From contig CAMARC010000008.1 of assembly GCA_945860405.1 (NCBI GenBank), positions 1 through 36,778 on the forward strand: a DNA stretch of 36,778 nt, written 5' to 3'. Of this stretch, positions 7,649-23,288 are shown piece by piece (position 1 is the stretch's first letter; every line of letters begins with the position of its first letter). Origin of the DNA: Candidatus Kuenenia stuttgartensis (GTDB lineage Bacteria; Planctomycetota; Planctomycetia; Pirellulales; UBA1268). The notes under the pieces were generated by a model. The model worked only from the letters and a program-made list of their open reading frames with translations. It searched no databases and had not been told where the DNA came from. The translations under genes and the position numbers were made by a program.

Positions 7649-8068
7649 TCAGGTCATCACCGGAGTATCCACCGGCTCCAGTCGCGTTTCGGAAAAACAG
7701 ACCGAGCCCCAATTGCGATGCCAGGTCGCCAGCATCCCTGCCGAGCCTCGAGGCAGAATCGTGAAGGCCAGCGTGCCGATCACGATTTCGTAGCCGAAAC
7801 GTTCGGAAAGGATCCCGCCCGTCCCTATGCTCTGGCCGAGGTAGTAACTTCCGGGTGCCAAACGCGGGGTAGTGATTGTCAAGCAAATGACGCGGGTTTC
7901 GCCCCGTCGAATCGAGAACGTATCGCTCGTGAAGAGTGTGCCGATCGTGTCCCCGAAGTGATTGAAGATGCTCGCCCCGATGGAAAGCCCTTCGAAATCG
8001 CGATCGCTGTGAATCGTCATGTCCACTCGGACTGGAGCGTTGTAGTCGAGTATGTCCTGCTGGTCAGT
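7649..8068 (-). pseudogene. C-terminal domain of a polysaccharide ABC-transporter ATPase (Wzt-like), 5' truncated
   Basis: About 139 codons are open here, with a possible GTG start at 8026 or ATG at 8020. The sequence reads as a beta-sandwich of the Wzt C-terminal type: SIGASIFNHFGDTIGTLFTSD, then LTITTPRLAPGSYYL, and near the end LAFTILPRG followed by WHRNWG. In Wzt this domain follows the ATPase domain and recognises the terminus of the exported O-polysaccharide. Here an in-frame TAG at 8071-8069 stops the frame upstream. Beyond it I find no Walker A, signature or Walker B motif, only a short possible NBD end (SLYFDGDLTAA) near 8160-8190. It is most simply a remnant of a deleted wzt. An independently expressed carbohydrate-binding domain is the alternative. 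It is one base from rfbF, so it may still be transcribed with the operon. Confidence 0.7.
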
Positions 8069-8157
8069 CTATGACCGCTTGGTGAATCGACATGGCATCG
8101 ACGGTTCCTGCCCGTCGCAAGTCGGCGAGCGGGACGCAGCTGTCAAATCTCCGTCGA

Positions 8158-8163
8158 AGTATA
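8158..8163 (-). promoter_or_regulatory. -10-like hexamer TATACT upstream of the sugar operon remnant
   Basis: TATACT on the minus strand (5 of 6 to the -10 consensus) lies about 130 bases before the first usable start of the Wzt-like fragment. At a 17-base spacing the -35 position reads CTGGAA, only 3 of 6. It could drive the remaining polysaccharide operon. Weak evidence. Confidence 0.25.
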
Positions 8164-8270
8164 GGGATTCCGAGACCACATTCCAGCCGTTTGAAGCGAA
8201 CACGCTGAGCGAGGGGCTTGGCAGAACGGCCTGGAGGTGTCAGCCCGCAGAGCGGGCACGAGGAGGCGGT

Positions 8271-8276
8271 TAGGAT
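8271..8276 (+). promoter_or_regulatory. -10-like hexamer TAGGAT upstream of the cysteine desulfurase
   Basis: TAGGAT occurs 28 bases before the ATG at 8304. The identical hexamer precedes the DUF116-prenyl synthase gene at 14247-14242. No clear -35 is seen. Confidence 0.3.
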
Positions 8277-8303
8277 ATCCGCGAGGACCCGCCCCAACGC
8301 TCC

Positions 8304-9494
8304 ATGTACCCCTCGCTCATGCCCTTCTTCGACCACAACGCCACGACGCCGCTCCACCCCGCCGCCCGCGCGGCGTGGCTCGAGGCCGCCGATCGCTTCT
8401 GGGCCAATCCCTCGAGCCTCTACGGCCAGGCCACGGCGGCCCGTGACCTCCTCGCCGATTGCCGCGAACGGCTCGCCGACTCGCTCGGCTGCAATGATCC
8501 TGGCCGGATCGTCTTTCCGTCGGGCGCCACCGCCGCCAACAACCTCTTGGCCCGACACCTTTCCACCTCGGCCCCGCCCGACGCCGTCGCGCTGGTTTCC
8601 CCCATCGAACACCCCGCCGTCGACGCGTCGATCCGCGCTGCCTTCCCGGGCCGCGTTCACGAAACCGGCGTCGACTCGGAGGGGGTCGTCGCGCCCGAGG
8701 CAGTCGCGGGGGCACTCGACGGAGCCGGCCACCGGCCCATCGCAGTTGTCTCGATCATGGCCGCGAGCAACGAAAGCGGCGTCCTCCAGCCATGGCAAGA
8801 CCTTGCTAGCCTCTGCCGCGATCGCCACATCCCGTTCCACACCGATGCTTCCCAGTGGCTCGGCAAGCTCCCCGCCGTTGGGCTCGCGGGCTGCGACTGG
8901 GTGACCGGGAGCGGCCACAAGTTCGGCGGCCCCCGCGGCGTCGGGTTTCTCGTTGTGCCTGCTGACAGCCGCTTCCGCGGCGACCTCGGCGGCCCGCAGG
9001 AACAGGGCCAGCACGCCGGCACCGAAAACCTCCCTGGCATCGCTGGAATGGTGGCGGCGCTCGAAGCTCGGGAGCGAGATCTCTCCACGATCGCCAAGCA
9101 GGGCGCCGCCCAGCGCGACGCCGCCATCGAACTGCTCCGCGAGCTTCTTCCTGCGGGAAAAGTCGTCAGCGGCAATGCCGAGCGACTGTGGAACACCCTC
9201 GCGATCCTCATCCCCGGAGCCGACTCGCGAAAGCTTGTCGCTGCCCTCGACCGGGCGGGTATCGAAGCCTCCACCGGCTCGGCCTGCAGTTCGGGCGCCG
9301 CCTCGGCCGCGCGGGTCGTTGCCGCGATCGCCCTGTCCCTCGGCCTCGCTCCGGGGGCACCCGCCGGCATGGTGCGCTTCTCCGCCGGCCCCGACACCAC
9401 CGCTGCAGACTGGCAGGCCGCGATGCATGCCTTGGCCGAAGCCGTCATCGCCAACGCGGGCCCCGCTCGGCCTCCGCGCGTCGACCTGCGCTGA
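8304..9494 (+). CDS. Cysteine desulfurase, NifS/IscS-like class V aminotransferase
   Basis: A 396-residue PLP enzyme that would remove sulfur from cysteine as enzyme-bound persulfide for Fe-S cluster, thio-cofactor or tRNA thiolation pathways. Visible landmarks are DHNATTPL near the N-terminus, His103 in IEHPA (stacks on PLP), Asp181 in HTDASQ (PLP ring nitrogen), the Schiff-base lysine Lys206 in SGHKFGG, and the persulfide cysteine Cys328 in STGSACSSG. The motif around residue 238 (AGTENLPG) is also typical. The start is ATG 8304 or, with a shorter N-terminus, ATG 8319. It is convergent with the terpenoid/redox cluster, only 39 bases from the end of the cyclase-like gene. That cluster contains at least two Fe-S proteins and a lipoyl-carrier homologue, so a sulfur-supply role for it is possible but unproven. 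Confidence 0.93.
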   Translation: MYPSLMPFFDHNATTPLHPAARAAWLEAADRFWANPSSLYGQATAARDLLADCRERLADSLGCNDPGRIVFPSGATAANNLLARHLSTSAPPDAVALVSPIEHPAVDASIRAAFPGRVHETGVDSEGVVAPEAVAGALDGAGHRPIAVVSIMAASNESGVLQPWQDLASLCRDRHIPFHTDASQWLGKLPAVGLAGCDWVTGSGHKFGGPRGVGFLVVPADSRFRGDLGGPQEQGQHAGTENLPGIAGMVAALEARERDLSTIAKQGAAQRDAAIELLRELLPAGKVVSGNAERLWNTLAILIPGADSRKLVAALDRAGIEASTGSACSSGAASAARVVAAIALSLGLAPGAPAGMVRFSAGPDTTAADWQAAMHALAEAVIANAGPARPPRVDLR

Positions 9495-9533
9495 AAGGGC
9501 TTTGGCGACGCGCCGACGGGCGACCCCTCGCTG

Positions 9534-11399
9534 TCAGCTGCTATGCCCTGATGCTGTGTTGTCCAGCAATCTCGCCGCCCGCTCGAGGGCCGTCACCGTG
9601 AAGGCGAGCGGATAGAGCGCTTCGTCGTACCAGAGCTTCGCGAAGTAGAGGCCGATCGGCGCGGCGGGGAAGACGTTTCCGCCGTCGGTGTGCTCGATCA
9701 GCCATTCGACCCCGCGGCCGACCGCGAGGAGCGCCCGGCCGGCAAGCTCTCGATCGGCCGCGTGCTCGGCCACTTCGGCGAGCGCCTCCACAGCCACCGC
9801 CGTCTCCTCGATCGTCGCCCCGATCCCCGGGGCACTCGCGATCCCACCATCGGGGCTTTGAGCGGCGAGAAGCCACTCGGCGCCGCGGCTGTTGCGCGTC
9901 GCTCGCACGACCTTCGCCGTGCCATAGGCGGGATTGGCCTGCTCGGGGTGGGCCTGATTGCCAAACCACAGCGGCCACCAGGCGCCGTCGGCCCGCTGCG
10001 TGCTGGCGAGATACCTGTGCGCGGCGGCGAGAGCGCGAGCCGTGCGCGGCGACTGCCCCGCCGCATCGAGCGACGTCCAGGCCTCCGCCGCGCGGAGGAC
10101 ATGCGCTGTGATGTCGGGGCAGGAGGTGTCAAACGGCAGCCTCCCCCAGCCGCGGCAAAATGTCGGCGTGCCGCCGTCGCGGTTGGCGAGATTGACAAGC
10201 CACGTAAGCGCGCTTCGGGCTGCCGCGCGGATGCCGTCGGGGAGCGGTCGATTCTCAGCTGCCTCGAGCGCCGCAAGGGCCAGAAGGCCGCCGCTTGTGT
10301 CATCGGCATCAGGGACCCCGCCGGGGAGATCGGTCCAGGCCCAGCCGCCAGGGGCTGCGCCAGTGTAGGGATGGACGCGATTCCATTGCTGCTCCAGGAG
10401 CCAGTCGCGCACCGCGGCCCGCTCTCCGCCATCGAGATGATCGGCGAGCTTGCCACCGGCGGCGAGGGCGCCGATTGAGAGCGTTGTGCACCAGGTGGCG
10501 AGATTCGTGTCGATCGGCCATGACCCGTCGGCCCGCTGCGAGGCGACGAGAAACGCCACGCCTTCCACCGCCACCGGATGCTCTGGGAGATCCATGCCCG
10601 CCAGGCTCATCGTCACGAAGCTCGTCAGCGGCGTCGCCTCGAGAAAGCCCCCTCCCGCCGGTTGGATCGCCCGGAGCGTGCGGAGCGTCGGGGCCACCGC
10701 CAAGTCGCGGAGTGTCTTCAGCGGCGGCCAGGCCGGCGCCCGCGCATGCCGCACCTGCCCGATCGCGATCAGCGCCGGCAGGGCGTAGCTCACCACCTGA
10801 AGGTCGACGAGCCGAAACCACGACTGCGGCAGCGCCGCCAGCTCGAAGGGGAGCTGTGGGATCACCCGCCATGTGGCCGGATCGTCGGGATCACCGAGCC
10901 GGCCGCAGAGCGCCGTGTGGACGAGGATCGGCACGCTGAACGTCTTGTCGCGGCCGTAGATCCGCGAGAGCGCCGCGGCGAGCGTCGCCCGATCGGTGCC
11001 ACCGGCTTGTGTGGTGATCCACGCCGCAGCGCCGTCGACGGCCGCCGAAGGGATGCCGCGCGTCTCGGCAAGCGCCGCGAGCACCGACCAGCCGAGGAGC
11101 GTCGTCGAGAGGTTGCCGGGGCTCGCGGCCGTATCCCCCCAACTGCCGTCGGGGAGTTGCGTGGCGGCGAGCCAGTCTTCGCCAGCCGCGATCCGCGCCG
11201 TGTGGACTGCCCTGCCCAGACGCTGGTCGATCAACCGCAAGCTCGCGATCGCCGTCGCCGTCGACAGCGCGCTCGACGACAGCTCGCCCGTCCAGTGGCT
11301 CCCGGTGCGCTGGGCGAGTAGATGCCCCGTCGCTGCGCCCCGAGACTTGGCGAAGGCGGAGGAGCGGAGGATGTGAGATGGCGGGACAGGCAGGCTCAT
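9534..11399 (-). CDS. Squalene-hopene-cyclase-family class II terpene cyclase homologue
   Basis: A 621-residue alpha-barrel protein with several QW-type repeats (QLPDGSW at 81-87, QRADGSW at 288-294, QRADGAWWPLWFG at 468-480, QSPDGG at 514-519). It carries the class II cyclase acid motif D364-A-D366-D367-T (PDADDT), matching DxDDT of squalene-hopene and tetraprenyl-curcumene cyclases. The CPDITAHVLRA and YGTAKVVRA segments align with the second half of squalene cyclases. It is at or slightly below the short end of typical SHC lengths (about 620-720). The ATG at 11399 overlaps the previous gene by ATGA. The protonating Asp suggests an active cyclase acting on a polyprenyl chain at the membrane face. 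The substrate could be squalene or a longer prenyl product from the neighbouring synthase; no squalene synthase is in the window. Last gene of the cluster. Confidence 0.88.
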   Translation of the reverse strand: MSLPVPPSHILRSSAFAKSRGAATGHLLAQRTGSHWTGELSSSALSTATAIASLRLIDQRLGRAVHTARIAAGEDWLAATQLPDGSWGDTAASPGNLSTTLLGWSVLAALAETRGIPSAAVDGAAAWITTQAGGTDRATLAAALSRIYGRDKTFSVPILVHTALCGRLGDPDDPATWRVIPQLPFELAALPQSWFRLVDLQVVSYALPALIAIGQVRHARAPAWPPLKTLRDLAVAPTLRTLRAIQPAGGGFLEATPLTSFVTMSLAGMDLPEHPVAVEGVAFLVASQRADGSWPIDTNLATWCTTLSIGALAAGGKLADHLDGGERAAVRDWLLEQQWNRVHPYTGAAPGGWAWTDLPGGVPDADDTSGGLLALAALEAAENRPLPDGIRAAARSALTWLVNLANRDGGTPTFCRGWGRLPFDTSCPDITAHVLRAAEAWTSLDAAGQSPRTARALAAAHRYLASTQRADGAWWPLWFGNQAHPEQANPAYGTAKVVRATRNSRGAEWLLAAQSPDGGIASAPGIGATIEETAVAVEALAEVAEHAADRELAGRALLAVGRGVEWLIEHTDGGNVFPAAPIGLYFAKLWYDEALYPLAFTVTALERAARLLDNTASGHSS

Positions 11400-12292
11400 A
11401 CGCTGGCATGCCCCAGGGCGACGAGGCCGTAGAAGGTGTATTCGGCATCGGGCTCGTCGTCGGCCCACGAGCCATGGAAGGCGCCGACATTTGTCCACAG
11501 CGAGTCTAAAAAATCGAGGACCGTCTCGCGGCGGTCGCGCCACGGCGCGTTGAGGGCATCGAGGGCGTGGAGCGTCACGGCCGTCGAGAGAAGATCGGGG
11601 AGCGGGGCGTCGGGGGCGGCGCAGAAGCCACCGGCCGGATGCCAGCGCTCGAGAAACCAATCCCCTATGCCCGCCGGCAGCGGCCGGTCGAGGGAGCGGA
11701 GCGTCGCGACGGCAGCGGCCGTCGCGGTGGTCGAGCCCTCGGCTTGCCCCGGCTCGTTCGACCAGCCGCCGTCAGCGCTCCGCAGGGCCTCAAGTGAATC
11801 GGCCAGGCGCTCGGGCTCTGGCAGCGGGAGCTTGAGATCGGCATGGGCGTTGACGGCAAGAAAGGAGCCGTAGGCGGTGCCGCAGGAGGCATGGCGGCGC
11901 GAGGCGTAGCCGCCGTCGGCGGAGCGATGCTGGAGAAACCCCGCGGCGATCCCCTCCCGGATGCCGGCGGCAAGCGTGGCGGCCGGTTGCGAGGCCCAGG
12001 CCCGGGCCAGGCAGCAGCGGTGGACGAGATCGAGGCTGTCACCAGGGCCATAGCCCGCGAGCCACTCGCGCGTGGCGATGATCTGCGGCGCCTGCGGATC
12101 GAGGGCATCGAGGGCCACGAGCGCATCGAGCGCAAACGAGCTGTAGTAGAGATCGCGGCGGCCACCGCGATTGACGTAGCCGCCGCCGGCGGCGGCCGTG
12201 CCATGGAGGAACGTGGTGACGAGGTCGGCGGCATCGCCCAGCGAACGTCGCGCGAGCCTGGCGACCTGGAGCATCTGGAGTCGCTGGCTCAT
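11396..12292 (-). CDS. Prenyltransferase/squalene-oxidase repeat protein, short alpha-barrel without DxDD
   Basis: A 298-residue protein made of alpha-alpha-barrel repeats of the prenyltransferase-beta / terpene-cyclase type. Repeat cores are GGYVNRGGRRDLYYSSFALD, SADGGYASRRHASCGTAYGSF, SADGGWSNEP and HPAGGFCAAP, ending in DAEYTFYGLVALGHASV. The size is that of a single barrel, about half of a squalene cyclase, and no DxDDT acid motif is seen. It lies 13 bases after the DUF116-prenyl synthase gene and overlaps the full-length cyclase homologue by ATGA, so the two cyclase-fold proteins are probably made together and may form a heteromer. Bacterial homologues of protein-prenyltransferase beta subunits share this fold, but a canonical zinc triad is not evident by eye. 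Start ATG 12292; the frame upstream is a shadow of the neighbour. Confidence 0.82.
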   Translation of the reverse strand: MSQRLQMLQVARLARRSLGDAADLVTTFLHGTAAAGGGYVNRGGRRDLYYSSFALDALVALDALDPQAPQIIATREWLAGYGPGDSLDLVHRCCLARAWASQPAATLAAGIREGIAAGFLQHRSADGGYASRRHASCGTAYGSFLAVNAHADLKLPLPEPERLADSLEALRSADGGWSNEPGQAEGSTTATAAAVATLRSLDRPLPAGIGDWFLERWHPAGGFCAAPDAPLPDLLSTAVTLHALDALNAPWRDRRETVLDFLDSLWTNVGAFHGSWADDEPDAEYTFYGLVALGHASV

Positions 12293-12305: not shown

Positions 12306-14144
12306 TCACGCCCGCTCGACGACGGCTGCGGCGGGCTCCACCGCGGGAGCACTCGCCTTGGCTGCCCCTTCCGTCTTCGCGTGTCGCAGCCGTTCCTGCT
12401 CCGCCTCGCGACAATAGCCTTCGAACGACACCTCGTCGAAAATCTTCCCGAGGACGCGGCGCATGAGACCTTTGAGCGTCGGCTCCAGGAGCCCGTCGAG
12501 CGCCCGGATCGCCTGCTCCTTGTAGCCTTCGAGGAGCAGCGCCGCCTTTTCATCGGCCTTGCATTCGGCGATCGCGCCGCGAATCCGCTCAGCCGTCACG
12601 CCCGCCACATGTTCGCCCCGGGAGAGGCGACCGAGCAGGTCGCGATCGGCGCCGCGGGCCCGTTCGGCGGCCAATGCCAACACGACGCTCGGCCGCGGCT
12701 GGGCGCCGGGGAGGAGCCCGGCGTCATCCTGGAGATCGTCGAGGTCGTCCTTGATCTGATAGGCGATGCCCACCGCCTCGCTGAACGTCCGCAGGACCTC
12801 GGCGAGCTCGCTGCCGCGGCCGGCACAGAGGCTGCCAAGCTGAAGGGCGACATCAAACGCGGGGGCTGTTTTGAGCCTGAAGATTTCGAGCACCTGTCGG
12901 CTCGCCAGCGCCGTGGGCGTCCGGCTCCAGGCGAGCTCCTCCCCTTGGCCGCGGCACAACAGCCGCTGCGACTGAGAGGCCTCGCGGACCGCCGCGGTGA
13001 TCGTCGCCGGATCGAGACCCGACTCGGCGATCAGCCGATAGCCTTCGCCGATGAGGACGTCGCCGACGTTGAGTGCCACCGGAACGCCATACGCACCGGG
13101 AAGCGTCGGCTCGCCGTAGCGCTCGAGATCGCCATCCTCGATGTCGTCGTGGACAAGCGAGGCTTTGTGGAAGCATTCCACGGCCACCGCGATCTTCTTG
13201 AGCGAGGCTTCCTGCGCCGGGGTTGGCGCTGGCACGAGCGCCGCATGGACGGCCGCGGCGAGAAACGGCCGCCACCGCTTGCCGCCGACGCCGAGCCACT
13301 CGCGCCCGACGCGCTCCGCATGCCCTTCCGCGGGGCCGAGCAGTTCGTCGAGGACGGCCGGCTCGAACCAAGTCTTCACGGTGTTTTGGAGGCCGCCGAG
13401 ATCGAGGCGCCGCGAGGTGTCGGCGGCCTCGAGGTGGATGTAATCCCACACCCAGTCGTCATCGACCATCGTGTCGATGCAGTCGTCTTGGAGGAGGGGA
13501 ACGGCGACGGCGGGGATCGCGGCTGCCTCGACGAACGGGTGTGTTTTCTCGAGGACCGGCAGGCAGCTGACGCCGACAATGGCGTCGATCTGGCCGGTCT
13601 GGATCATCGCCATCACCAAGGCCGAGCCCTCGGCCACGAGGACGGCGTAGCCGAGCCGCTCGGCTTCGGCTTGGAAGTCTTGGATCGAGCAGAGCCCGCA
13701 GCTCTTGCAGAGGAGGCCGAACTCATCAAACGGCGCCGGACAGCGGCTCTCCACGCGGAGGCACTTCGGCATCAGGAGGAGGCGGCGATGGTAGGGCACG
13801 GCGGCCAAGGCATCGCGCCACGACTCGTTGTTGACAAGCACCCCGGCGTAATCGAGATGGATCTCGCCGAGACCCACCTCGGCCATCGCCGCGCGGGCCC
13901 GGGCATGCAATTCCTCCATCCGCAGCGGCGGCACCGCCGGCTCGGCGGCGAGTCCGCGGCGGATCGCCTCGAGGAGGGCCGTCCGCTCCGGCTTCGTCTG
14001 CGGGATTTTCGGATGGGGGGCGCGGGAGCGGATCAGCGCCGGCGGCACCGGCGGCGGAAGAATTACCAGCGGCAGCGAGGATCGCACCGGGGCGCCGGGC
14101 GCAGCGGCGGCGGAATCCGTCGTCGTTCGTTCGGCTGTCGACAT
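12306..14144 (-). CDS. DUF116 - polyprenyl diphosphate synthase fusion protein
   Basis: A 612-residue two-domain protein. Residues about 95-240 match the DUF116 family, with a cysteine pattern at 128 (PKC), 135, 146, 149, 152 (CKSCGLC), 194 (GVSC) and 222, suggesting a metal or Fe-S site. Residues about 280-580 are a trans-isoprenyl diphosphate synthase: GGKRWRP at 287-293, first aspartate motif D333-D334-I-E-D337, and second motif D466-D467-L-D-D470. Both DDxxD motifs are intact. Ala328 and Ser329 before the first motif are small, which in this family goes with chains of C20 or longer rather than C15. A Pro-rich linker forms the N-terminus and an Ala-rich tail the C-terminus. ATG 14144 has GAGGA upstream. 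The fusion suggests that chain synthesis is tied to a redox or metal step. It could supply the cyclase homologues encoded next. Confidence 0.88.
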   Translation of the reverse strand: MSTAERTTTDSAAAAPGAPVRSSLPLVILPPPVPPALIRSRAPHPKIPQTKPERTALLEAIRRGLAAEPAVPPLRMEELHARARAAMAEVGLGEIHLDYAGVLVNNESWRDALAAVPYHRRLLLMPKCLRVESRCPAPFDEFGLLCKSCGLCSIQDFQAEAERLGYAVLVAEGSALVMAMIQTGQIDAIVGVSCLPVLEKTHPFVEAAAIPAVAVPLLQDDCIDTMVDDDWVWDYIHLEAADTSRRLDLGGLQNTVKTWFEPAVLDELLGPAEGHAERVGREWLGVGGKRWRPFLAAAVHAALVPAPTPAQEASLKKIAVAVECFHKASLVHDDIEDGDLERYGEPTLPGAYGVPVALNVGDVLIGEGYRLIAESGLDPATITAAVREASQSQRLLCRGQGEELAWSRTPTALASRQVLEIFRLKTAPAFDVALQLGSLCAGRGSELAEVLRTFSEAVGIAYQIKDDLDDLQDDAGLLPGAQPRPSVVLALAAERARGADRDLLGRLSRGEHVAGVTAERIRGAIAECKADEKAALLLEGYKEQAIRALDGLLEPTLKGLMRRVLGKIFDEVSFEGYCREAEQERLRHAKTEGAAKASAPAVEPAAAVVERA

Positions 14145-14241: not shown

Positions 14242-14250
14242 ATCCTATCA
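14242..14250 (-). promoter_or_regulatory. Extended -10-like element before the DUF116-prenyl synthase gene
   Basis: In the only gap of about 100 bases within the cluster, the minus strand reads TGATAGGAT (TGn plus TAGGAT) about 98 bases before the ATG at 14144. It would allow separate expression of the last three genes. No -35 was identified. Confidence 0.35.
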
Positions 14251-15141
14251 CGTGGAGGGGGATGACGCCGCCGGACCCATGCCTTCGGCCGCGGCCTGCC
14301 CGGCGAGCGCCGCTGCGGCCCGCTTGGCGGCTTCGGCCGATTTCCGTTGGATCTCCTCCGGCGAGGGAAGCGCGTCGAGCACCTCTCGGGGAATTGCCGC
14401 GGCGTCGGCGAGCTTCGTGAGACAGCGCCGCCGCTCGGCAAGGGCCTGATCGGCGCTCCGCTCCCGCGAGAAACGGTTTTTCGCCTCGGCCGAGCGTTCC
14501 CGGAGGCGGGCGTAGAGATCGCCACCGAGGAGGGCCGAGATGTCGATCTTCATCTTCTCCCGGCCGACGTCTGTCTGGCTTACCGGAGCCCCGTCGATCG
14601 GCCCGGCATGGTATTTCGGGAACATGATCGCGACTTCGGGGCAGACGCGCGAGCAGGCCGGGCAGTTGACCTTGCAGTTGGAGGGATTCTCGACGCGAAG
14701 GCGATGGTCGGCGTCGACCCCGTAGACATCGAACAGGCAGAAGCTCAGGCACTGCATGCAATTGGTGCAGCGGACCGGATCGATGACCGGAAACCATGGC
14801 TTCCAGGAATCACCCGCGCCTGGGGTGTTGAGGGGACGGTCGGCCCGGGTGCCGTCGACGAGCCCAACGACCTCCGCCGGCGTCCGCCCCGTGCAGTCGT
14901 GGACTTCGACTTTCGTCGTGTCCGTGGAAGTGACCAGCGGCGCTCCGCCGACAAACCGACCGACGACCACGAACGTCGCTTCATCGGCGGCGGCCGCAGC
15001 CCCTTCATGGGCAAGCGTCACCGAATACCCCCGATCGAGGAGCGAGGCCACGAGCTCTGCCCGTTCCGGGCCGGCCAGCGGCTCGGCACCGCTTCCTTCA
15101 TAGAGCACCACGCGGGGCTGGCGGGTGGCGAGTGTCGTCAT
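14248..15141 (-). CDS. 2[4Fe-4S] ferredoxin-domain protein of the terpenoid/redox cluster
   Basis: A 297-residue protein. An N-terminal part of about 110 residues (VVLYEGSG..., no family recognised) leads to two classic cluster motifs: CxxCxxCxxxC at Cys125, 128, 131, 135, and CxxxCxxCxxxCP at Cys156, 160, 163, 167. The tail of about 130 residues is charged and Ala-rich, with a run of probable helix around 200-290. No signal peptide or membrane segment is seen, so it is cytosolic. It probably passes electrons to a partner such as the radical SAM protein or the DUF116 domain; this is inferred from neighbours. The gene overlaps the small cysteine-protein gene by ATGA, pointing to tight coupling. 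Confidence 0.82.
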   Translation of the reverse strand: MTTLATRQPRVVLYEGSGAEPLAGPERAELVASLLDRGYSVTLAHEGAAAAADEATFVVVGRFVGGAPLVTSTDTTKVEVHDCTGRTPAEVVGLVDGTRADRPLNTPGAGDSWKPWFPVIDPVRCTNCMQCLSFCLFDVYGVDADHRLRVENPSNCKVNCPACSRVCPEVAIMFPKYHAGPIDGAPVSQTDVGREKMKIDISALLGGDLYARLRERSAEAKNRFSRERSADQALAERRRCLTKLADAAAIPREVLDALPSPEEIQRKSAEAAKRAAAALAGQAAAEGMGPAASSPST

Positions 15142-15626
15142 CGTTTCTCTCCCTCGGGGGTCGTCGGCGGAAGCTGACCGAGCGAGGCGATCCGGCCGGC
15201 CGCCGCCTGTTCGGCCGCGGCATCATCGCGGCCCGCGGCGCTCTCCGCCACGGCGCTTGGGTCGCCGGAAAGCATCCCCGCGAGGACCCGCTCTGCCGGG
15301 AGCGTCCGCATGTTGAGAATCTCGACGCCCGCCTCGCCGAGCGGGGAATCGCCCAGATGAAACAGCCCGCGGACGGCGCGCGGCCAACAGGCGGCGATCC
15401 GCAACGTCGTCCCCTCCTTGGCGAGCGCCGACAGATCGGCCAGATGGGGATCGCGGCGGGCCGCCATGTCGCAGAGGTCGGCCACCGCCTCGAAGCCCCG
15501 CCCCGATCCGGCGAGCCCCTCGAGCACCGCCCCCTTCACGTCGGCCGGCACCACCTGCGCAAACGCGCAGCGGCAATAGAGCATCCGCACCGCCGGCTCC
15601 GTTCCCTTGGCGTCGTCTCCGCTCAT
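15138..15626 (-). CDS. Small cysteine-containing protein of unknown function, cluster member
   Basis: A 162-residue protein whose family I do not recognise. It has Cys18 and Cys20 (YCRCAF), Cys52 (DLCDMAA) and Cys80 in the segment IAACWPRAVRGLFH, followed by VEILNMRTLP. The remaining C-terminal 50 residues are Ala-rich and probably disordered. The C-x-C pair and two further single cysteines could bind a metal or Fe-S centre. It is coding beyond doubt: its start overlaps the stop of the radical SAM gene (ATGA) and its stop overlaps the start of the ferredoxin-like gene (ATGA), so these three products are almost certainly made together and may form one complex. Confidence 0.8.
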   Translation of the reverse strand: MSGDDAKGTEPAVRMLYCRCAFAQVVPADVKGAVLEGLAGSGRGFEAVADLCDMAARRDPHLADLSALAKEGTTLRIAACWPRAVRGLFHLGDSPLGEAGVEILNMRTLPAERVLAGMLSGDPSAVAESAAGRDDAAAEQAAAGRIASLGQLPPTTPEGEKR

Positions 15627-16876
15627 CGCCGTTCTCCCTCAGCCGTCGCCGTCGCGCTAGACCGCGTTGGCGGGCGCTTCCCCGGCTTGGCGTAGGTACC
15701 GAAGTCGTTGAACCAGTGGCGTTTCGCGAGCCGGTACATCCAGTGCTTCTCCGGCACTTCGCGGCCGGGGAGATCCTGGCTGCTCCGCGGGGTGGCCGCG
15801 AGAAGCTCCTCGCGCGCCGTGCCCCGCTGGGTGGTGTCGCGGGCCCCGTGTCGATCGGCGATCTCGAGGACGAGCTTCGGGTTCTCGAGCATCACGCAGC
15901 CGCGGCTGTGGGCTGCTGCCGCGTCGCGCATGTCGCGGAGGAAGGCCGACTGCGTCACCGTGTCGTAGAAGGAGCCTTTCCGGGCGTCGTCGACGGCAAG
16001 CTGGATGATCGGGCAGGGCTCGATGTAGCCCGACGGGCCGACGTGGTGCGTGATTCCAGCGGCCATCGGGCAGAGGGCGTCTCCCTGGTCGTCGTAGTAG
16101 GCATCGACGATCGCGATCGGCTTCGTCGCCCGCCGCGACGTGACGAACTCGCGGACGCGGACGAGCTGGTCGGGGCGAAGCGCCAGCTCCGGTGAGGCCT
16201 CGGGGCCGACCGGCCGGTAGGTGTGGAACCAGGTGTAGTGGACGCCGAGGCCGATAAGGTGGTCGAGCCAGGCATCGGTGAGGAGCTGGTCGATGTTCGA
16301 CTGGCAGAGGCTCGTCGCCACCCCGGTGAGGAGCCGGGCTTCGAGGCAGACCTCGAGGCCACGGAGCGTGCGGTCGAGCACCTGCCGATTGCCCCGGCGG
16401 ATGTCGCTGGTGGCCGCGTCACCCTCGATGCTCAAAAGCGGCGTGGCATTGCCGATCCGGGCGAGCCGGCGGGCGACGTCAGGGGTGATCAGCTGGCCGT
16501 TGGTGAAAATCTGGAAGTAACAGTCGCCATGCCGCTCGAGGAGATCGAAGAGCCCCGGATGGAGGAACGGCTCGCCACCGAGAAGGCCGAAGAAGGAGTT
16601 CCCGTGGGCTTTCGCGTCGGAAATGATCCGGTCGAGCTCGTCGGTCGTCATCATCGTTCGCGGCGCCTGGACGTCGACCCAGCATCCCTGGCAGCGGAGG
16701 TTGCAGGAATTGATGATCGAGAGGTGGAGGAACGGCGGAAAGACGATCCCGCGGCGCTTGCGGGCCTTGAATCGCTCGACGGAGAGCATGCCTTTCAGAC
16801 CGAAGTTCCAGCCGGCCTTCCACAGGCACTTCGGCGACACGGTGGTGACGATGCGGGTCGCGAGTTGCGGAAGCAT
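15623..16876 (-). CDS. Radical SAM protein with SPASM-like C-terminal cysteines
   Basis: A 417-residue radical SAM enzyme. The SAM-binding cluster motif is Cys58-x3-Cys62-x2-Cys65 (CNLRCQGC), followed by the GGEPF motif at 100-104 and SIEGD at 149-153. Three later cysteines (Cys269 in LCPMAAG, Cys288 in EPCPI and Cys327 in SRGC) may ligate an auxiliary cluster. The arrangement resembles the MoaA/PqqE/SPASM group. The N-terminus before the barrel (residues 1-45) is basic and partly hydrophobic, perhaps for membrane contact. It differs from HpnH (adenosylhopene synthase), whose second half is unlike this one. Its place among prenyl-chain enzymes suggests radical chemistry on an isoprenoid, but peptide or cofactor modification is equally possible. 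Start ATG 16876, 57 bases after the CobW-like gene. Confidence 0.88.
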   Translation of the reverse strand: MLPQLATRIVTTVSPKCLWKAGWNFGLKGMLSVERFKARKRRGIVFPPFLHLSIINSCNLRCQGCWVDVQAPRTMMTTDELDRIISDAKAHGNSFFGLLGGEPFLHPGLFDLLERHGDCYFQIFTNGQLITPDVARRLARIGNATPLLSIEGDAATSDIRRGNRQVLDRTLRGLEVCLEARLLTGVATSLCQSNIDQLLTDAWLDHLIGLGVHYTWFHTYRPVGPEASPELALRPDQLVRVREFVTSRRATKPIAIVDAYYDDQGDALCPMAAGITHHVGPSGYIEPCPIIQLAVDDARKGSFYDTVTQSAFLRDMRDAAAAHSRGCVMLENPKLVLEIADRHGARDTTQRGTAREELLAATPRSSQDLPGREVPEKHWMYRLAKRHWFNDFGTYAKPGKRPPTRSSATATAEGERR

Positions 16877-16933: not shown

Positions 16934-18052
16934 TCAGGCGGGGATGCGGTGCGTGGGGACGGGGCGGCCGGGGCGGAAGTGCTCGCTGTGGATCACGTCG
17001 GCGGCCAGGTCGCCCCGGACTGTCTCCAGCGCCTCGCGGACGGCCACTTCGAGGATCGCCGGATCGGCTTCAGCCCGGAGGTTGATGAGGAGCCGGCCGA
17101 CGTCGAGCGGATCGGTGAGGCGGTGCGAGAGTTCGGCGACGGCGGCGGAACGGACGAGGTTTGCGGCGGCCAGTTCGTAGTCGTCCCCCTCGACTGAAAG
17201 CGTCGCCTTGAGATGGGCGATTTCGTGGCCGAGACCAGCCACCGCGGCCCGGATCGCCTCGAGGAGCCGAGTGAGCATCGCGTTGCCGTCCCACTCCCGT
17301 CCCCCGGGCTCACCGAGGCGGATCTCGGCATTGAGCCAGCCGAGGAGGGCCTCGCCGTCGGCGTAGCGGTCGTAGTCGATCTCCCCGATCGGCCGGGGGC
17401 TGGAGGAGTCGGCAAGGAGCGTCTCGAACCAGTCGTCGAGGCCGGTCCCGTCGCGGGCCGAGATCTCGTACACCCGGGCGCCGGGGCAGGCGACGGCCAA
17501 GGCTCCGCGGAGCGCTTCGCGTTGCTCGGCGGTGACGAGGTCGCACTTGTTGATGACGATGATCTCCGCCTCCTCGAGTTGCTTGCGGTAGATGTAGCTG
17601 ACATTCGGCGAGAAGCTGCCGCCGGAGGCGCCGGGAACGCCGAGGATCCGCAGCGCCCGGAGGGGATCGACGACGACACTCACCGGCGCGACCGTGAAGC
17701 GATCGCCGTAGATCCGCGCCAGTGGCAGGCTGACCGTGGCGACCAGATCGGTGCAGCTCCCCACCGGCTCGGCGAGGAGAATGTCGGGGGCGGTGTCGTG
17801 CGAGAGTCGATCGGCGGCCTCGACGAGCGAATTGAAACGGCAGCAGAAGCAGCCTCCGGCGATCTCCTCGACGGGGAGGGCGTGGGCGCGGACGAGGGCC
17901 GTGTCGACAAGCCCGCCGGCCTGATCGTTGGTGACCAAGCCGACGCGGAGCCCGCGGGCCGTGAACCACTCGGCGGCGCGGAGAATCGACGTCGTTTTCC
18001 CTGCCCCGAGGAAGCCGCCGATCATCACGTAACGGGCTGGCGTGGCGGGCAT
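16934..18052 (-). CDS. G3E-family (CobW/COG0523) GTPase, probable metallochaperone
   Basis: A 372-residue P-loop GTPase. It shows the Walker A motif GGFLGAGKTT (12-21), the family metal-binding motif GGCFCC (Cys68, Cys70, Cys71), AEPVGS, and the base-specificity motif NKCDL. The C-terminal part carries the usual variable region. G3E proteins use GTP hydrolysis to deliver Zn, Co or Ni, or to assist cobalamin or nickel enzymes. Here no cobalamin, nitrile hydratase or urease gene is near, so the client is probably a metal-dependent protein of this same cluster (DUF116 or cysteine proteins). It follows the lipoyl-carrier gene by 32 bases and precedes the radical SAM gene by 57. Length is normal. 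Family certain, client unknown. Confidence 0.92.
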   Translation of the reverse strand: MPATPARYVMIGGFLGAGKTTSILRAAEWFTARGLRVGLVTNDQAGGLVDTALVRAHALPVEEIAGGCFCCRFNSLVEAADRLSHDTAPDILLAEPVGSCTDLVATVSLPLARIYGDRFTVAPVSVVVDPLRALRILGVPGASGGSFSPNVSYIYRKQLEEAEIIVINKCDLVTAEQREALRGALAVACPGARVYEISARDGTGLDDWFETLLADSSSPRPIGEIDYDRYADGEALLGWLNAEIRLGEPGGREWDGNAMLTRLLEAIRAAVAGLGHEIAHLKATLSVEGDDYELAAANLVRSAAVAELSHRLTDPLDVGRLLINLRAEADPAILEVAVREALETVRGDLAADVIHSEHFRPGRPVPTHRIPA

Positions 18053-18084: not shown

Positions 18085-18576
18085 TCAGGTGCTGTCGGGA
18101 GACTCGTCGTCGGCCGAGGGAGAAGAGCCACTATAGCGGGACGCATGGAGCCGATCGATCGTCCCGGAGAGGAGGGCGACATAGCCGTGGACGTCGAGAT
18201 CCCCCTCCGCCGGCCGGCCGCGGACGGCGTAGAGCCAGCCATTGCCATGCGGATCGGAGTGGGTCAGGCACGATTCGGTCGAAAGGAGTGGGTTGGTCTC
18301 GACGAACTCTCCATCCATGACGGAATAAAGATCGCTGACCGCCTTGAAGCCTTCGACGGTGCCGAGCCGCTGGCCACCGACGACCGGGGCGCCGGGGGTG
18401 ACGTCGAGAAGCATCTCCACCAACTCGCCGAGCATCCGCGTGGCAAACTTCGTCATCCCCACCTGCCACACCTCGCCGCCATCGACCGAGGTCATCCAGA
18501 AGTGCGACGGCGCGTAGCGATGGCCGGCCGGGAAGCGGGCCGTGAAGTGGGCATGCCGGAAGCGAACGGCGTCCAT
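18085..18576 (-). CDS. GcvH-like lipoyl carrier protein, first gene of the terpenoid/redox cluster
   Basis: A 163-residue homologue of the glycine-cleavage H protein. The family core is clear: VGMTKFATRMLGEL, then GTVEGFKAVSDLY with the lipoylatable Lys78, then GEFVETNPLL and the end motif SDPHGNGWLYAV. H proteins are about 125-130 residues; this one has an extra C-terminal tail of about 40 residues rich in Ser and Asp. GcvT and GcvP are absent from the window, and the gene heads a cluster of Fe-S and prenyl enzymes, so a role in glycine cleavage is doubtful. Dedicated lipoate-binding proteins of this fold (LbpA) work in sHdr sulfur oxidation, showing that the fold can be recruited to other pathways. 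ATG 18576 is chosen over an upstream start because family similarity begins right there. Confidence 0.86.
   Translation of the reverse strand: MDAVRFRHAHFTARFPAGHRYAPSHFWMTSVDGGEVWQVGMTKFATRMLGELVEMLLDVTPGAPVVGGQRLGTVEGFKAVSDLYSVMDGEFVETNPLLSTESCLTHSDPHGNGWLYAVRGRPAEGDLDVHGYVALLSGTIDRLHASRYSGSSPSADDESPDST
18130..18135 (-). promoter_or_regulatory. -10-like hexamer TATAGT before the CobW-family gene
   Basis: TATAGT on the minus strand, about 78 bases before the start at 18052 and inside the 3' end of the lipoyl-carrier gene. It is the same hexamer as before rfbH. Could be an internal promoter. Confidence 0.28.
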
Positions 18577-18647
18577 GGGGGGGAACGGGCTCCGGGGTGG
18601 GGGGCGATGCTGAACGGGGGGCACGCCGCCAGCCGAGGCGGCCCCGC

Positions 18648-18690: not shown

Positions 18691-19905
18691 TCAATCGTCG
18701 TCGAGATGGTCGTCATCGCCGGCATCCGGCGAGTCGTCGGCGGGGAGGGGGGGAGCCATTTCCGGTGGGGCCCATGCCGAGCGTTGTTCGGGGGGCGTGC
18801 CGTCGCCGTGCAGGGAGTCTGGCTGGGGGGCTTCCTGCAGCCTGGCCGGCGGACGCCTCACGCCGCGCCTCCCGGCGCCGAGCCCGCGGAGGCGTTTGAT
18901 GAGCAGGACGATGTCGGTCGGAAGGGGGCTCGAGAACTGCATCTCCTCCCCAGTAACCGGGTGGACGAAGCCGAGATCGGCGGCGTGGAGCGCCACCCGC
19001 GCGGCCTGCGAGCGATCGACGAGTTCGGTTCCGCGGGGCGCCGAGTAGACCCGCTCACCACAGACCGGATGACCGCTTTCGGCCATGTGGATGCGGATCT
19101 GGTGGGTGCGTCCCGTCTCCAGCCGGCATTCGACGAGGGTGTAGTCGTTGCCGAAGTGCTCCACCGGGACGACGTGCGTCACCGACCGCTTCCCCTCCTC
19201 GCCGTCGGCGGAGCCGCGCCGGCCATCGCCGCGGTCGCGGACGAGATTGGAGATGATCGTGCCCGCCTCGACCCTACCGACGCAGATCGCCAGATAGCGA
19301 CGCTGCGTGGTGTGGGCGCGGAATTGTTCGGCGAGGATTCGTTCGGCCGGAACGGTGCGGGCAAACACGAGCAGGCCGCTGGTCTCGCGATCGATGCGGT
19401 GGACGGCCCGCACTGGCGGGAGGCGTCGCGGCCCGATTCGCTCCTGCCCACCGCGGGGAGGACCGCCGCGGGGGGTGGGGGCGCGCCGCGAACGACCGTC
19501 GATGAACCGTTGCACGACCGTCGGGAGGAGCTCGTCGAGCGTCGGCTGGACCTGCCGGCGGCGGGCCGGCCAGTCGCGCTCCTCGGCGTGGCGGGTGGTG
19601 GTGAGGCCGGCCGGCTTCTCGACGACGACGACGGCGTCATCGACGTGGACGATCTTCACGTCGTCGGCCCGCGGGGGAGCGACGGCGGCTTCGGGGAGCA
19701 CCTTCACGACCTCTCCGTCTTGAAGTCGCCGCGCCACGTCGGTGCAGATGTTGCCGTGGATCATCACATGGCGCGACCGGACCAGCTTCTGCACCCGCGA
19801 CCAACTCGCCCCATCGAGCTTGGCGCGGAGGAATCCTGCGAGTGTCTGCCGCGCGTCTCCGCTGCCGACGTGAAAGACCGTGCCGGTGGACTTCGGCTTC
19901 GTCAT
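18691..19905 (-). CDS. RluA/RluD-family 23S rRNA/tRNA pseudouridine synthase
   Basis: A 404-residue protein with an N-terminal S4 RNA-binding domain (about residues 18-70, with [18 protein letters not shown]). The catalytic domain holds the essential aspartate Asp172 in [21 protein letters not shown] at 95-101, and [15 protein letters not shown] later. It isomerises uridines in rRNA or tRNA. Two unusual parts are a basic Arg/Gly-rich insert before the catalytic loop (about 137-165) and a C-terminal extension of about 65 residues rich in Pro and Asp, ending in an acidic run. Neither belongs to the core fold. The gene is divergent from purA. The exact target position (RluA, C or D type) cannot be fixed by eye. 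Confidence 0.9.
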
Positions 19906-20063
19906 GGGAATGGGATGCTCGATGCGTGTGGATGGATGCCCCAGCCAGCGCGGGGGCCGGGGGGCCAGGGTGTCTGCCGGAATCCAGGCTGCCCCGGAAA
20001 GGAGGCTTTGGCTGCCGGTCCAGCCGGCCGTTTGCAGCCCCTCTCCCGCAGTCCGCCAGCGGC

Positions 20064-20091
20064 TTGACCGGGGGTGGCCCGGTTCTAGACT
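20064..20091 (+). promoter_or_regulatory. Possible sigma70-type promoter for the purA operon
   Basis: TTGACC at 20064-20069 (5 of 6) and TAGACT at 20086-20091 (4 of 6) are 16 bases apart, placing transcription start near 20098 and leaving a leader of about 80 bases to the GTG at 20177. It lies in the 271-base divergent gap with the pseudouridine synthase gene, in which I see no other feature. Confidence 0.4.
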
Positions 20092-20176
20092 CTACATCGG
20101 GTGGGCCATGCTGCGGCCGCCTCCGGCGGAATCGCCGTCTCCTTTCGCTCCACTCCCCCTCCGAGGATCCCCTTCC

Positions 20177-21535
20177 GTGCCCGGCACCTGCGTCATCGGT
20201 CTACAATGGGGTGACGAGGCGAAGGGGAAGCTCGTCGATCTCCTCACCGAGGATCACGACGTCGTCGTCCGCTACCAGGGGGGGGCCAACGCCGGCCACA
20301 CCGTCGTTTCCGGCGGCCAAACCTGGAAATTGTCGCTCATCCCCAGCGGGATTCTCCGTGACAACGTGGCCTGTGTCGTCACCGGCGGCGTCGTCCTCGA
20401 CCCCGCCAGCGTGATCCGGGAGATGGACGGCCTCGAGTCGCGGGGCGTGACGATCGGTCGGAAGCTCCTCCTCTCCGACCGGGCCCATGTCGTGTTTCCC
20501 TGGCATGTCAGCGAAGACCGCTTCCTCGACGGCAGCTTGTCGGGCGGCGAGGCGATCGGCACCACCGGCCGAGGGATCGGCCCCTGCTACCGCGACAAGG
20601 TCGGCCGGTCGCTGGCGATTCGGCTCGGCGACTTTTACCGCCCCGACTTCCGCGACAAACTCGCCCATGTCGTGAACGTCAAAAACAGCCTCTTTGCCGG
20701 TTGGAAAGTCGGTGGGGCGACGATCGAGCCCCTCGATGCCGACCGGATCCACGCCGAATACGCCGCGTACGGCGAGCGTCTCCGGCCGCATGTCGCCGAC
20801 ACGACCGCCTTCCTCCTCGACGAGATCGAGGCCGGAAAGCGCTTTCTTTTCGAGGGCGCCCAAGGGTCGCTCCTCGACATCGACCACGGCACGTTCCCCT
20901 TCGTCACCAGCAGCAATTCCTCCGGTGTCGGTGTGTCGAGCGGTTCGGGCGTGCCTGGGCGCTGGATCGACCGGGTGATCGGCGTGGTGAAGGCCTATTC
21001 CACGCGCGTCGGAGGGGGGCCGCTCCCCACCGAGCAGGTCAACGCCGTCGGCGAGCACCTCCGAGAGCGTGGCCACGAGTACGGCACGGTGACGAATCGG
21101 CCGCGCCGCTGCGGATGGTTTGATGCCGTGGCCGCCCGCTATACCGCCAGGCTTTCCGGGGTGGATGTCCTGGCCGTCATGCTTCTCGATGTCCTTTCCG
21201 AACTCGACGAAGTGAAGATCTGTTCGGCCTACGAGATCGACGGCCGCCGCGTCCATCAATTCCCCAGCCACATCGACGATCTCAAGAAGGCTGTTCCCGT
21301 CTACGAGACCCTCCCTGGGTGGAGGGACGACCTGACGGGCGTGCGGGGCTACGATGACCTTCCCCGCCAGGCCCGGGCCTATCTCGACCGTATCGGTGAG
21401 CTCCTCGGTCGGAGGGTTTCGATCGTGTCTGTTGGTCCCGACCGGGCCCAGACGATCCTCCGTGACCGCAACCTCGCCGGCAGCCCCCCGAAGCCATGGC
21501 CACCACACCCGCACCCCTCGGCGGCGAACGCCTGA
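20177..21535 (+). CDS. purA: Adenylosuccinate synthetase
   Basis: Joins IMP and aspartate using GTP in the first AMP-specific step of purine synthesis. The 452-residue protein starts at GTG 20177, where the conserved N-terminus [17 protein letters not shown] begins and GAGGA lies nine bases upstream. The frame is open further 5', and an ATG at 20108 would add an improbable Pro-rich leader. Other family motifs are [44 protein letters not shown] and [16 protein letters not shown]. One small variation is GDEAKGK instead of the usual GDEGKGK in the P-loop. The C-terminus has a Pro/His-rich extension of about 20 residues that is also the stretch overlapped by the next gene. Confidence 0.96.
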
Positions 21536-22299
21536 CGCCGGTGGCGGCGCCGGTCGAGACCGCTCCGCTCGCCCCTGCTGCTCCGCGCCCCGACTCCCTC
21601 CCGCGGCATGTCGCCATCATCATGGATGGCAACGGACGCTGGGCGATGACGCGCGGCCTGCCCCGCATCGAGGGGCACCGTCGGGGCGTGGCGAGCGTGC
21701 GGCGGACAACCGAACAGTGCGTGCGCCTCGGGATCGAGCAGCTCACCCTCTACTGCCTCTCCAGTGAAAACTGGCGGCGGCCCGAGGCGGAGCTCGCTTT
21801 TCTGATGTGTCTCCTCGAGCAGTATCTCATCGAGGAACGGGGGCTCCTCATGGAGCAGGGCGTGCGCCTGTCGATGATCGGCCGCCGCGATGGCCTGCCG
21901 GCGGAAACCCTCGCCGCCCTCGATCAGACCGCCGAACTCACCGCCGGCAACGGCGGCATGAAGCTCTGTCTGGCGATTAATTACGGCGCCCGCGCCGAGA
22001 TCGTCGAGGCCGCGCGGCGCCTCGCCCGCGAGGTGCGGGAGGGGCGCCTCGACCCCGAAGCCATCGACGAGGATCAATTTTCCGCGGCGCTCGACACCGC
22101 CGGGATGGCCGATCCCGATCTCCTCATCCGCACCGCCGGCGAGATGCGTGTGAGCAATTTCCTCCTCTGGCAGATCAGCTACGCGGAGCTGTGGGTGACC
22201 GACGCTGCCTGGCCCGACTTCGACGAGGGGCAACTCGACGCAGCCCTCGCCTCGTATGCCTCCCGTGAGCGTCGCTTCGGGGGGCTCGGGAAACCGTGA
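21496..22299 (+). CDS. uppS: Undecaprenyl diphosphate synthase (cis-prenyltransferase)
   Basis: Extends farnesyl diphosphate with cis isoprene units to the lipid carrier for peptidoglycan and O-antigen. The 267-residue sequence contains [13 protein letters not shown] with the catalytic Asp, the GHRRG segment, [23 protein letters not shown] and [15 protein letters not shown], all signature elements. ATG 21496 overlaps purA by 40 bases. A GTG at 21541, just after the purA stop, would also leave the whole domain intact, so the start is uncertain. The product is linked to the polysaccharide genes of region 1 by function only. Confidence 0.94.
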
Positions 22300-23288
22300 C
22301 GCTTCCAAGCCTCGCCACGCCGATTCCGGAGAGCATCCCTCCCAGGCCAGCGGCCCAGACGCGGATGGCCCGGGTGATCATGGGATTGGGTTTGCTCGGT
22401 GTGTTCCTGCCGCTGGTGTGGGCCGATTCCGTCGGCCTGTGGGGCGCTGGAGCGGCGGTGTGGCTCCTCCCTGTCGCGATCCTCCTGGCGGGTGCCGCGG
22501 GAATTGAGTGTGTGGCGATTCTCGCCCGGCGGGGCCTCGGGCCGCGGGCGGCCGTGCTCGTCACCGGGTGTGTCGTCGTGCCTCTGGCGGCGGCCGTCGG
22601 CAGTCCGGCGTTCCGCTCCGCGACGGGCGGGGGAGCGCCTCTCAATCCAGCCGGGTGGGCTGCCGCGGCCGCCGTGGCTGCGATGACGGGAGCATTTCTC
22701 GTGGAGATGGCCTTCTATCGGCAGGGAGATGGGGCGATCGAACGGCTGGCGGGCACGGCCCTGGGGCTGTTGATGGTCGCCCTGCCGATGGCCTTCATTG
22801 TCACCCTCCGTCTCACCGGTACGCCAGACTACGAGGGGGGGTGGCACCGGCCGGGGCTTGCACCGTTGGTGGGGATGATCGCGGCGGTGAAGTTCGGCGA
22901 TGTGCTCGCTTACCTCGTCGGTTCGACCGTCGGCCGTCACCGCATGGCGCCGACCCTGAGCCCGGGGAAGACTTGGGAGGGAGCGGTCGGGGCTTTGTGC
23001 GGGGCCCTGATCGCCTCGTGGATCGTGTTGGTCGGCCTGCGTGGAGTGCTCACGCCCGCCGATGGCGGCAGCGCCGAGCCGTTCGGCGGGTGGATCGTCC
23101 ACGGAGTGTTCGTCGGCGCGGCCGGGATGCTCGGCGACCTTGCCGAGTCGCTTGTCAAACGCGAGGCCGGCGTCAAGGATTCGGGGGGAGCGCTCGGCGC
23201 TCTCGGCGGTGGTCTCGATCTCGTCGATTCGCTTCTCTTCGCCGCGCCTGCAGCATGGTTGCTGTGGGTCTATTCGTTTCCATCCTGA
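22296..23288 (+). CDS. cdsA: Phosphatidate cytidylyltransferase (CDP-diacylglycerol synthase)
   Basis: A 330-residue integral membrane protein with about eight hydrophobic helices, making CDP-diacylglycerol from phosphatidate and CTP. The C-terminal family block is recognisable (SLVKREAGVKDSGG, then GGGLDLVDSLLF), as is LSPGKTWEG before it. Compared with the usual signature (K-D, then H-G-G, then D-R-x-D), the His is replaced by Leu and the Arg by Leu, a notable change near the catalytic site. The start is a GTG whose last bases form the uppS stop (GTGA), so the two are coupled. Function as a canonical CdsA is likely; a specialised variant is possible. Confidence 0.88.
   Translation: MTLPSLATPIPESIPPRPAAQTRMARVIMGLGLLGVFLPLVWADSVGLWGAGAAVWLLPVAILLAGAAGIECVAILARRGLGPRAAVLVTGCVVVPLAAAVGSPAFRSATGGGAPLNPAGWAAAAAVAAMTGAFLVEMAFYRQGDGAIERLAGTALGLLMVALPMAFIVTLRLTGTPDYEGGWHRPGLAPLVGMIAAVKFGDVLAYLVGSTVGRHRMAPTLSPGKTWEGAVGALCGALIASWIVLVGLRGVLTPADGGSAEPFGGWIVHGVFVGAAGMLGDLAESLVKREAGVKDSGGALGALGGGLDLVDSLLFAAPAAWLLWVYSFPS

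Follow-up and report, generated by a model that had tools for sequence, protein, structure and literature searches.

A DUF116-prenyl synthase fusion and its nine-gene cluster in Planctomycetota and Verrucomicrobiota

The fusion gene

The window, by which we mean the whole stretch of 36,778 nucleotides that was analysed, holds on its minus strand a gene for a DUF116-polyprenyl diphosphate synthase fusion (12306-14144), whose 612 residues translate without a stop. Pfam places DUF116 (PF01976; COG1852) at residues 88-235 (13440-13883, minus strand; E 9.7e-34) and a trans-prenyl synthase domain (PF00348, polyprenyl_synt) at residues 281-474 (12723-13304, minus strand; E 2e-35, 122.6 bits against a cut-off of 27). 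A first-pass annotation had described a single chain with both domains, and the profile search supports both halves; its concern that the DUF116 score might be insignificant is unfounded, the score being 116.5 bits against a cut-off of 25. Several NCBIfam trans-prenyl synthase models matched the fusion protein, all below their cut-offs. To our knowledge, DUF116 has no known function.

The first-pass annotation had also suggested that a stop hidden around residues 240-280 might separate two genes. In relatives of the same family the reading frame is open across the domain junction, with no stop, and the same architecture occurs at 53-98% identity in named Planctomycetota and Verrucomicrobiota assemblies. 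Because the same uninterrupted frame recurs in many independent assemblies, a sequencing or frameshift artefact joining two genes is rejected, and we consider the fusion to be real. The seven cysteines named beforehand (Cys128, 135, 146, 149, 152, 194 and 222) are all present in the DUF116 domain, and each is invariant in an alignment of fusion proteins from the two phyla (32/32). The same seven, CxxCxxC included, are also found in two stand-alone DUF116 proteins.

In the synthase half, the first Asp-rich motif is DDIED (D333-D337; 13134-13148, minus strand), preceded by HKAS, and the second is DDLDD (D466-D470; 12735-12749, minus strand). Ala328, Ser329, D333, D334, D337, D466, D467 and D470 are invariant in the 32-fusion alignment, as is a Lys-Thr pair at 425-426. 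The synthase had been called complete, and both Asp motifs are there, but the completeness has to be qualified: the PF00348 match spans positions 9-194 of a 251-position profile and the C-terminal part is divergent, the segment past the second Asp motif is short and has no usual GK..GK.T loop, and the first motif is followed by RYG instead of RRG. Relatives in clade B (Planctomycetia; see the tree below) have NDLKD as their second motif, so catalytic competence is not assured for every member of the family. Planctomycetal stand-alone long-chain synthases have the same Ala at position -5 and a small residue at -4 (HxATLVHDD), and IspA-like ones have Tyr (HAYS). The earlier argument from small residues at 328-329 for a product of C20 or longer keeps its premise, since Ala-Ser is present and invariant, and it is reasonable but weak; the pair fits such a product and does not fix it.

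The AlphaFold model of the whole fusion protein has a mean pLDDT of 74, and its C-terminal half has the isoprenyl-synthase fold, for which Foldseek gives GGPP and decaprenyl synthases as the closest structures (E about 1e-11). Modelled alone, the DUF116 half is alpha/beta (pLDDT 75), with low confidence in the cysteine loop. Neither a Foldseek comparison of this DUF116 model with the PDB (best E 0.016) nor a sequence search of the PDB with DUF116 gave anything significant.

The surrounding cluster and its distribution

The fusion lies in a nine-gene cluster whose order, established by tblastn against relatives, is fixed. A GcvH-like protein with the conserved lipoyl-lysine context EGFKAVSDLY (18085-18624, minus strand) is followed by a CobW-type GTPase (16934-18052, minus strand), a radical SAM protein whose orthologue is confined to fusion-bearing genomes in the set tested (15623-16876, minus strand), a small protein with conserved YCRCA...DLC...AC.PRAV (15138-15626, minus strand), a ferredoxin-type protein with two four-cysteine clusters (14248-15141, minus strand), the fusion, an alpha-alpha toroid (Prenyltrans) protein whose start was set by a conserved MSxRLQMLQVARLA (11396-12292, minus strand), a class II cyclase resembling squalene-hopene cyclase (SHC), with DADD at ORF residues 451-454 (9534-11399, minus strand; start inferred from alignment, the listed ORF beginning at 11660), and a homologue of NifS-type cysteine desulfurases, whose gene runs convergent to that of the cyclase (8304-9494, plus strand). 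A separate canonical GcvH is encoded elsewhere in the genome. The small cysteine protein is limited to the window-type cluster; it has no Pfam relative, and a sequence search of the PDB gave nothing significant. That it might be fused to the longer ferredoxin of Planctomycetia is unsupported (hhalign probability 1.5%). Two further ORFs are probably not genes, one at 8064-9428 (minus strand) antisense to the NifS gene and one at 18706-20067 (plus strand) antisense to an RluA-type gene (18691-19905, minus strand). Upstream of the cluster, at 19880-23288 on the plus strand, are three genes that accompany it in numerous members of the family and that resemble, by eye, purA, uppS and cdsA.

The gene order recurs in many loci of the window's family. 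One Verrucomicrobiota contig (L120) has all nine genes in the same order, the last one convergent, and other Verrucomicrobiota have the cluster in parts or the fusion alone. In many Verrucomicrobiota and Planctomycetia its genes lie dispersed, and a NifS gene was not seen next to the cluster in every clade.

DUF116 was found in 127 of 294 Planctomycetota genomes, 76 of which were scored as fusion-bearing, that is, as having DUF116 within an open reading frame of 500 aa or more. The cyclase is present in 74 of these 76 and in none of the 218 other Planctomycetota genomes, and the ferredoxin in 72/76 against 1/218. The two fusion-bearing genomes with no cyclase are G136, where DUF116 is decayed, and G358, where there is a stop in the frame. 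Among 36 Verrucomicrobiota genomes picked for having the fusion, the cyclase was found in 35, in one case as a 55-residue fragment. Of the partner genes, the genome-wide survey covered the cyclase and the ferredoxin. The radical SAM orthologue was followed in a 44-genome panel, where it occurs in 27 of the 28 genomes with an intact fusion (the gap is G367) and in 0/16 others. All these co-occurrence counts take in genomes that are related to one another, so they are uncorrected for shared ancestry and do not represent independent events. Well-assembled genomes of the same class exist that do not have the fusion.

The fusion as such is not new. DUF116 (arCOG02078, COG1852) fused to polyprenyl synthetase in some bacteria was reported in 2015, with Psta_0175 of Pirellula staleyi as an example, and a flavodoxin/REC-like fold and an electron-transfer role were proposed for DUF116 (Makarova, Galperin and Koonin 2015; PMC5898192). 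Our alpha/beta model is compatible with the flavodoxin-like proposal and does not establish it. The passage on Psta_0175 has the same domain fusion and the electron-transfer proposal; the cluster, the cyclase, the radical SAM and ferredoxin partners and the decayed paralogue in a hopanoid cluster do not appear in that passage. In the literature searched, where many subscription papers fell outside coverage, we found no paper on the nine-gene cluster, and this setting of the fusion looks undescribed. The first-pass annotation had proposed that the fusion ties DUF116 to isoprenoid metabolism. The gene context strengthens that link, but it is not a new observation (PMC5898192), nor is it a general rule: stand-alone DUF116 in other Planctomycetota adjoins fmt (methionyl-tRNA formyltransferase), directly after it (L181:8739-9254 and L183:8476-8919), and in one case (L183) rsmB comes next, so DUF116 has further duties and is not isoprenoid-bound in general.

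Comparison with hopanoid synthesis and decayed forms of DUF116

The cluster shares a common logic with hopanoid biosynthesis, namely a prenyl synthase, a class II toroid cyclase with DxDD and radical SAM tailoring. The DADD of the cyclase is invariant and lines up with DVDD, the catalytic motif of squalene-hopene cyclase 1gsz. In contrast to hopanoid biosynthesis, the cluster adds GcvH, NifS, CobW and two further Cys-rich proteins, and its cyclase scores far under the SHC cut-off (60.0 bits with TIGR01507, for which the NCBIfam equivalog cut-off is 431.1), so that it is a relative of SHC and not SHC by that test. The radical SAM protein of the window likewise gave no TIGR03470 (HpnH) among its best 25 matches and no DUF3463 match; HpnH is found in a paralogous cluster on another contig. 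In Akkermansia muciniphila, adjacent pairs of terpene cyclase/mutase genes (AMUC_RS06010/06015 and AMUC_RS03775/03780) have been reported as hopanoid genes (PMC7671984), and these could correspond to the toroid and SHC-like pair.

That other contig of the same genome (C6, 16001-36000; L227) carries a hopanoid cluster with a DUF116-synthase paralogue alongside HpnH, SHC, a histidine kinase, a very conserved response regulator, a HemN-like radical SAM protein and a xylose-isomerase-like protein (L227, L050-L057). The hopanoid assignments rest on the syntenic locus L052 (SHC, TIGR01507, E 3.6e-175; HpnH, TIGR03470, E 1.8e-152). The paralogue, which serves as a natural control, keeps Cys128, 149 and 152; 135, 146 and 194 are missing from every copy and 222 from most, and the synthase motifs of the paralogue are intact save for ND in place of DD in the second motif. 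Decay has also occurred in genomes G136 and G349, which have no cyclase, ferredoxin or radical SAM gene; cysteines remain at three of the seven DUF116 positions in G136 and at none in G349, and the synthase motifs HKASLVHDDI[EQ]D, GQGAE and KT are retained in both. Cysteine decay with the synthase motifs retained is thus seen in fusions that have no partners or that have taken on another duty, and we infer that the cysteines are kept for the radical SAM, ferredoxin and cyclase branch and not for chain elongation. In G349, the decayed fusion is near a Trp_halogenase/FAD_binding_3-type oxidoreductase that shares 46% identity with one from the hopanoid cluster at L052 (L235:12444-13721 and 8862-10892), hinting at a second partner of the synthase.

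In a tree of synthase domains, the fused forms make up one clade apart from the stand-alone ones (support 100/100). This clade splits into A, with the window and Verrucomicrobiota, and B, with Planctomycetia, in which the hopanoid-cluster paralogue is nested. A second tree, with one long-branched row taken out and two decayed forms put in, is poorly resolved inside the Planctomycetia clade. For the cysteine decay, parsimony gives only about two independent events, of which supported branches force one. The fusions of the window's family group with Verrucomicrobiota and the hopanoid paralogue with Planctomycetia (L066, L077, L079, L089, L101, L108, L113, L120, L134 and the window), and it is possible, judging from these sequences, that the cluster was transferred between phyla and the old copy then reused. 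With long-chain trans-polyprenyl diphosphate synthases (PF00348) the fusion shares the fold, both Asp motifs and small residues at -5 and -4, and it differs from them in its N-terminal DUF116, RYG for RRG, the shortened loop after the second motif and its separate clade.

The proposed role of the fusion

We believe, with a probability of roughly 0.6, that the fusion is dedicated to a hopanoid-like pathway to cyclised terpenoids in Planctomycetota and Verrucomicrobiota, where it acts as the entry enzyme that forms the prenyl diphosphate, with DUF116 as a putative Fe-S module. Beyond the domain identities, the synteny and the co-occurrence, we infer a mechanism in which the synthase half would condense IPP with an allylic primer to a prenyl diphosphate of C20 or longer. 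This chain, or a product derived from it, would be cyclised by protonation from the DADD of the SHC-like class II cyclase, which may act together with the toroid protein. One or more Fe-S clusters in the DUF116 half may pass electrons (or sulfur) in a radical SAM/ferredoxin step, and GcvH, NifS and CobW may help to load or supply the radical SAM/ferredoxin machinery. The domain fusion would hold the prenyl product close to the redox step.

A different use of the same genes would be sulfur insertion, in which sulfur mobilised by NifS is passed on by a lipoylated GcvH-like carrier and a DUF116/ferredoxin relay, and the radical SAM protein makes a C-S bond to give a sulfur-containing cyclic terpenoid. 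In two phyla the cluster keeps NifS and the GcvH-like protein, lysine context included, in synteny, the cysteine-rich small protein and the ferredoxin sit between their genes, and lipoate-binding sulfur carriers of other systems provide a precedent (PMC10332631). However, NifS and GcvH could just serve Fe-S assembly or another carrier function, and NifS did not turn up next to the cluster in every clade, so we regard this scheme as unlikely.

Very unlikely, in our opinion, is a housekeeping role of the fusion as a long-chain prenyl synthase (e.g. for menaquinone-6), with DUF116 a regulating redox sensor and the cluster a matter of chance proximity. The Ala-Ser pair at -5/-4 resembles that of long-chain synthases, and the window's own genome, which is 82% complete, has an IspA-type synthase, the fusion and the decayed paralogue, with no stand-alone long-chain synthase seen. 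Against this, a 30-genome panel contained 17 Planctomycetota genomes whose fusion is intact, and each of these carries exactly three PF00348 genes, one of them the fusion, which argues that the fusion is an extra, dedicated synthase and disfavours a housekeeping menaquinone enzyme. Typing of the top-scoring further synthase in each genome gave the stand-alone long-chain kind (HxATLVHDD or HxASLVHDD) where the fusion is intact and the IspA type (HTYSLIHDDLPAMD) in G136 and G349. A housekeeping enzyme also sits poorly with the absence of the fusion from well-assembled genomes of the same class and with its tracking of the cyclase, the ferredoxin and the radical SAM gene.

That DUF116 is a passive leftover of a chance ancestral fusion, which stabilises or localises the synthase and has no Fe-S role, would fit the way in which synthase motifs outlast DUF116 in the hopanoid paralogue, G136 and G349, but it is quite improbable given seven cysteines that are invariant across the fusions of two phyla and common to stand-alone DUF116, and given decay that was seen only in fusions without the partners or with another duty.

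To return to the dedicated entry enzyme, its DUF116 is paired strictly with a class II cyclase, a radical SAM protein and a ferredoxin and loses its cysteines in genomes without these partners, which gives DUF116 a specific role that is testable in cultured aerobic planctomycetes. If this role is true, a lipid pathway that two phyla share would have been overlooked, or mislabelled as hopanoid synthesis. A bolder proposal, which we hold to be rather doubtful, is that the nine-gene cluster makes terpenoid lipids of a class not yet described, cyclised and possibly sulfur-bearing, and that the prenyl synthase with its DUF116 Fe-S domain works there with a dedicated radical SAM protein, a cysteine desulfurase and a GcvH-like carrier of the lipoyl type.
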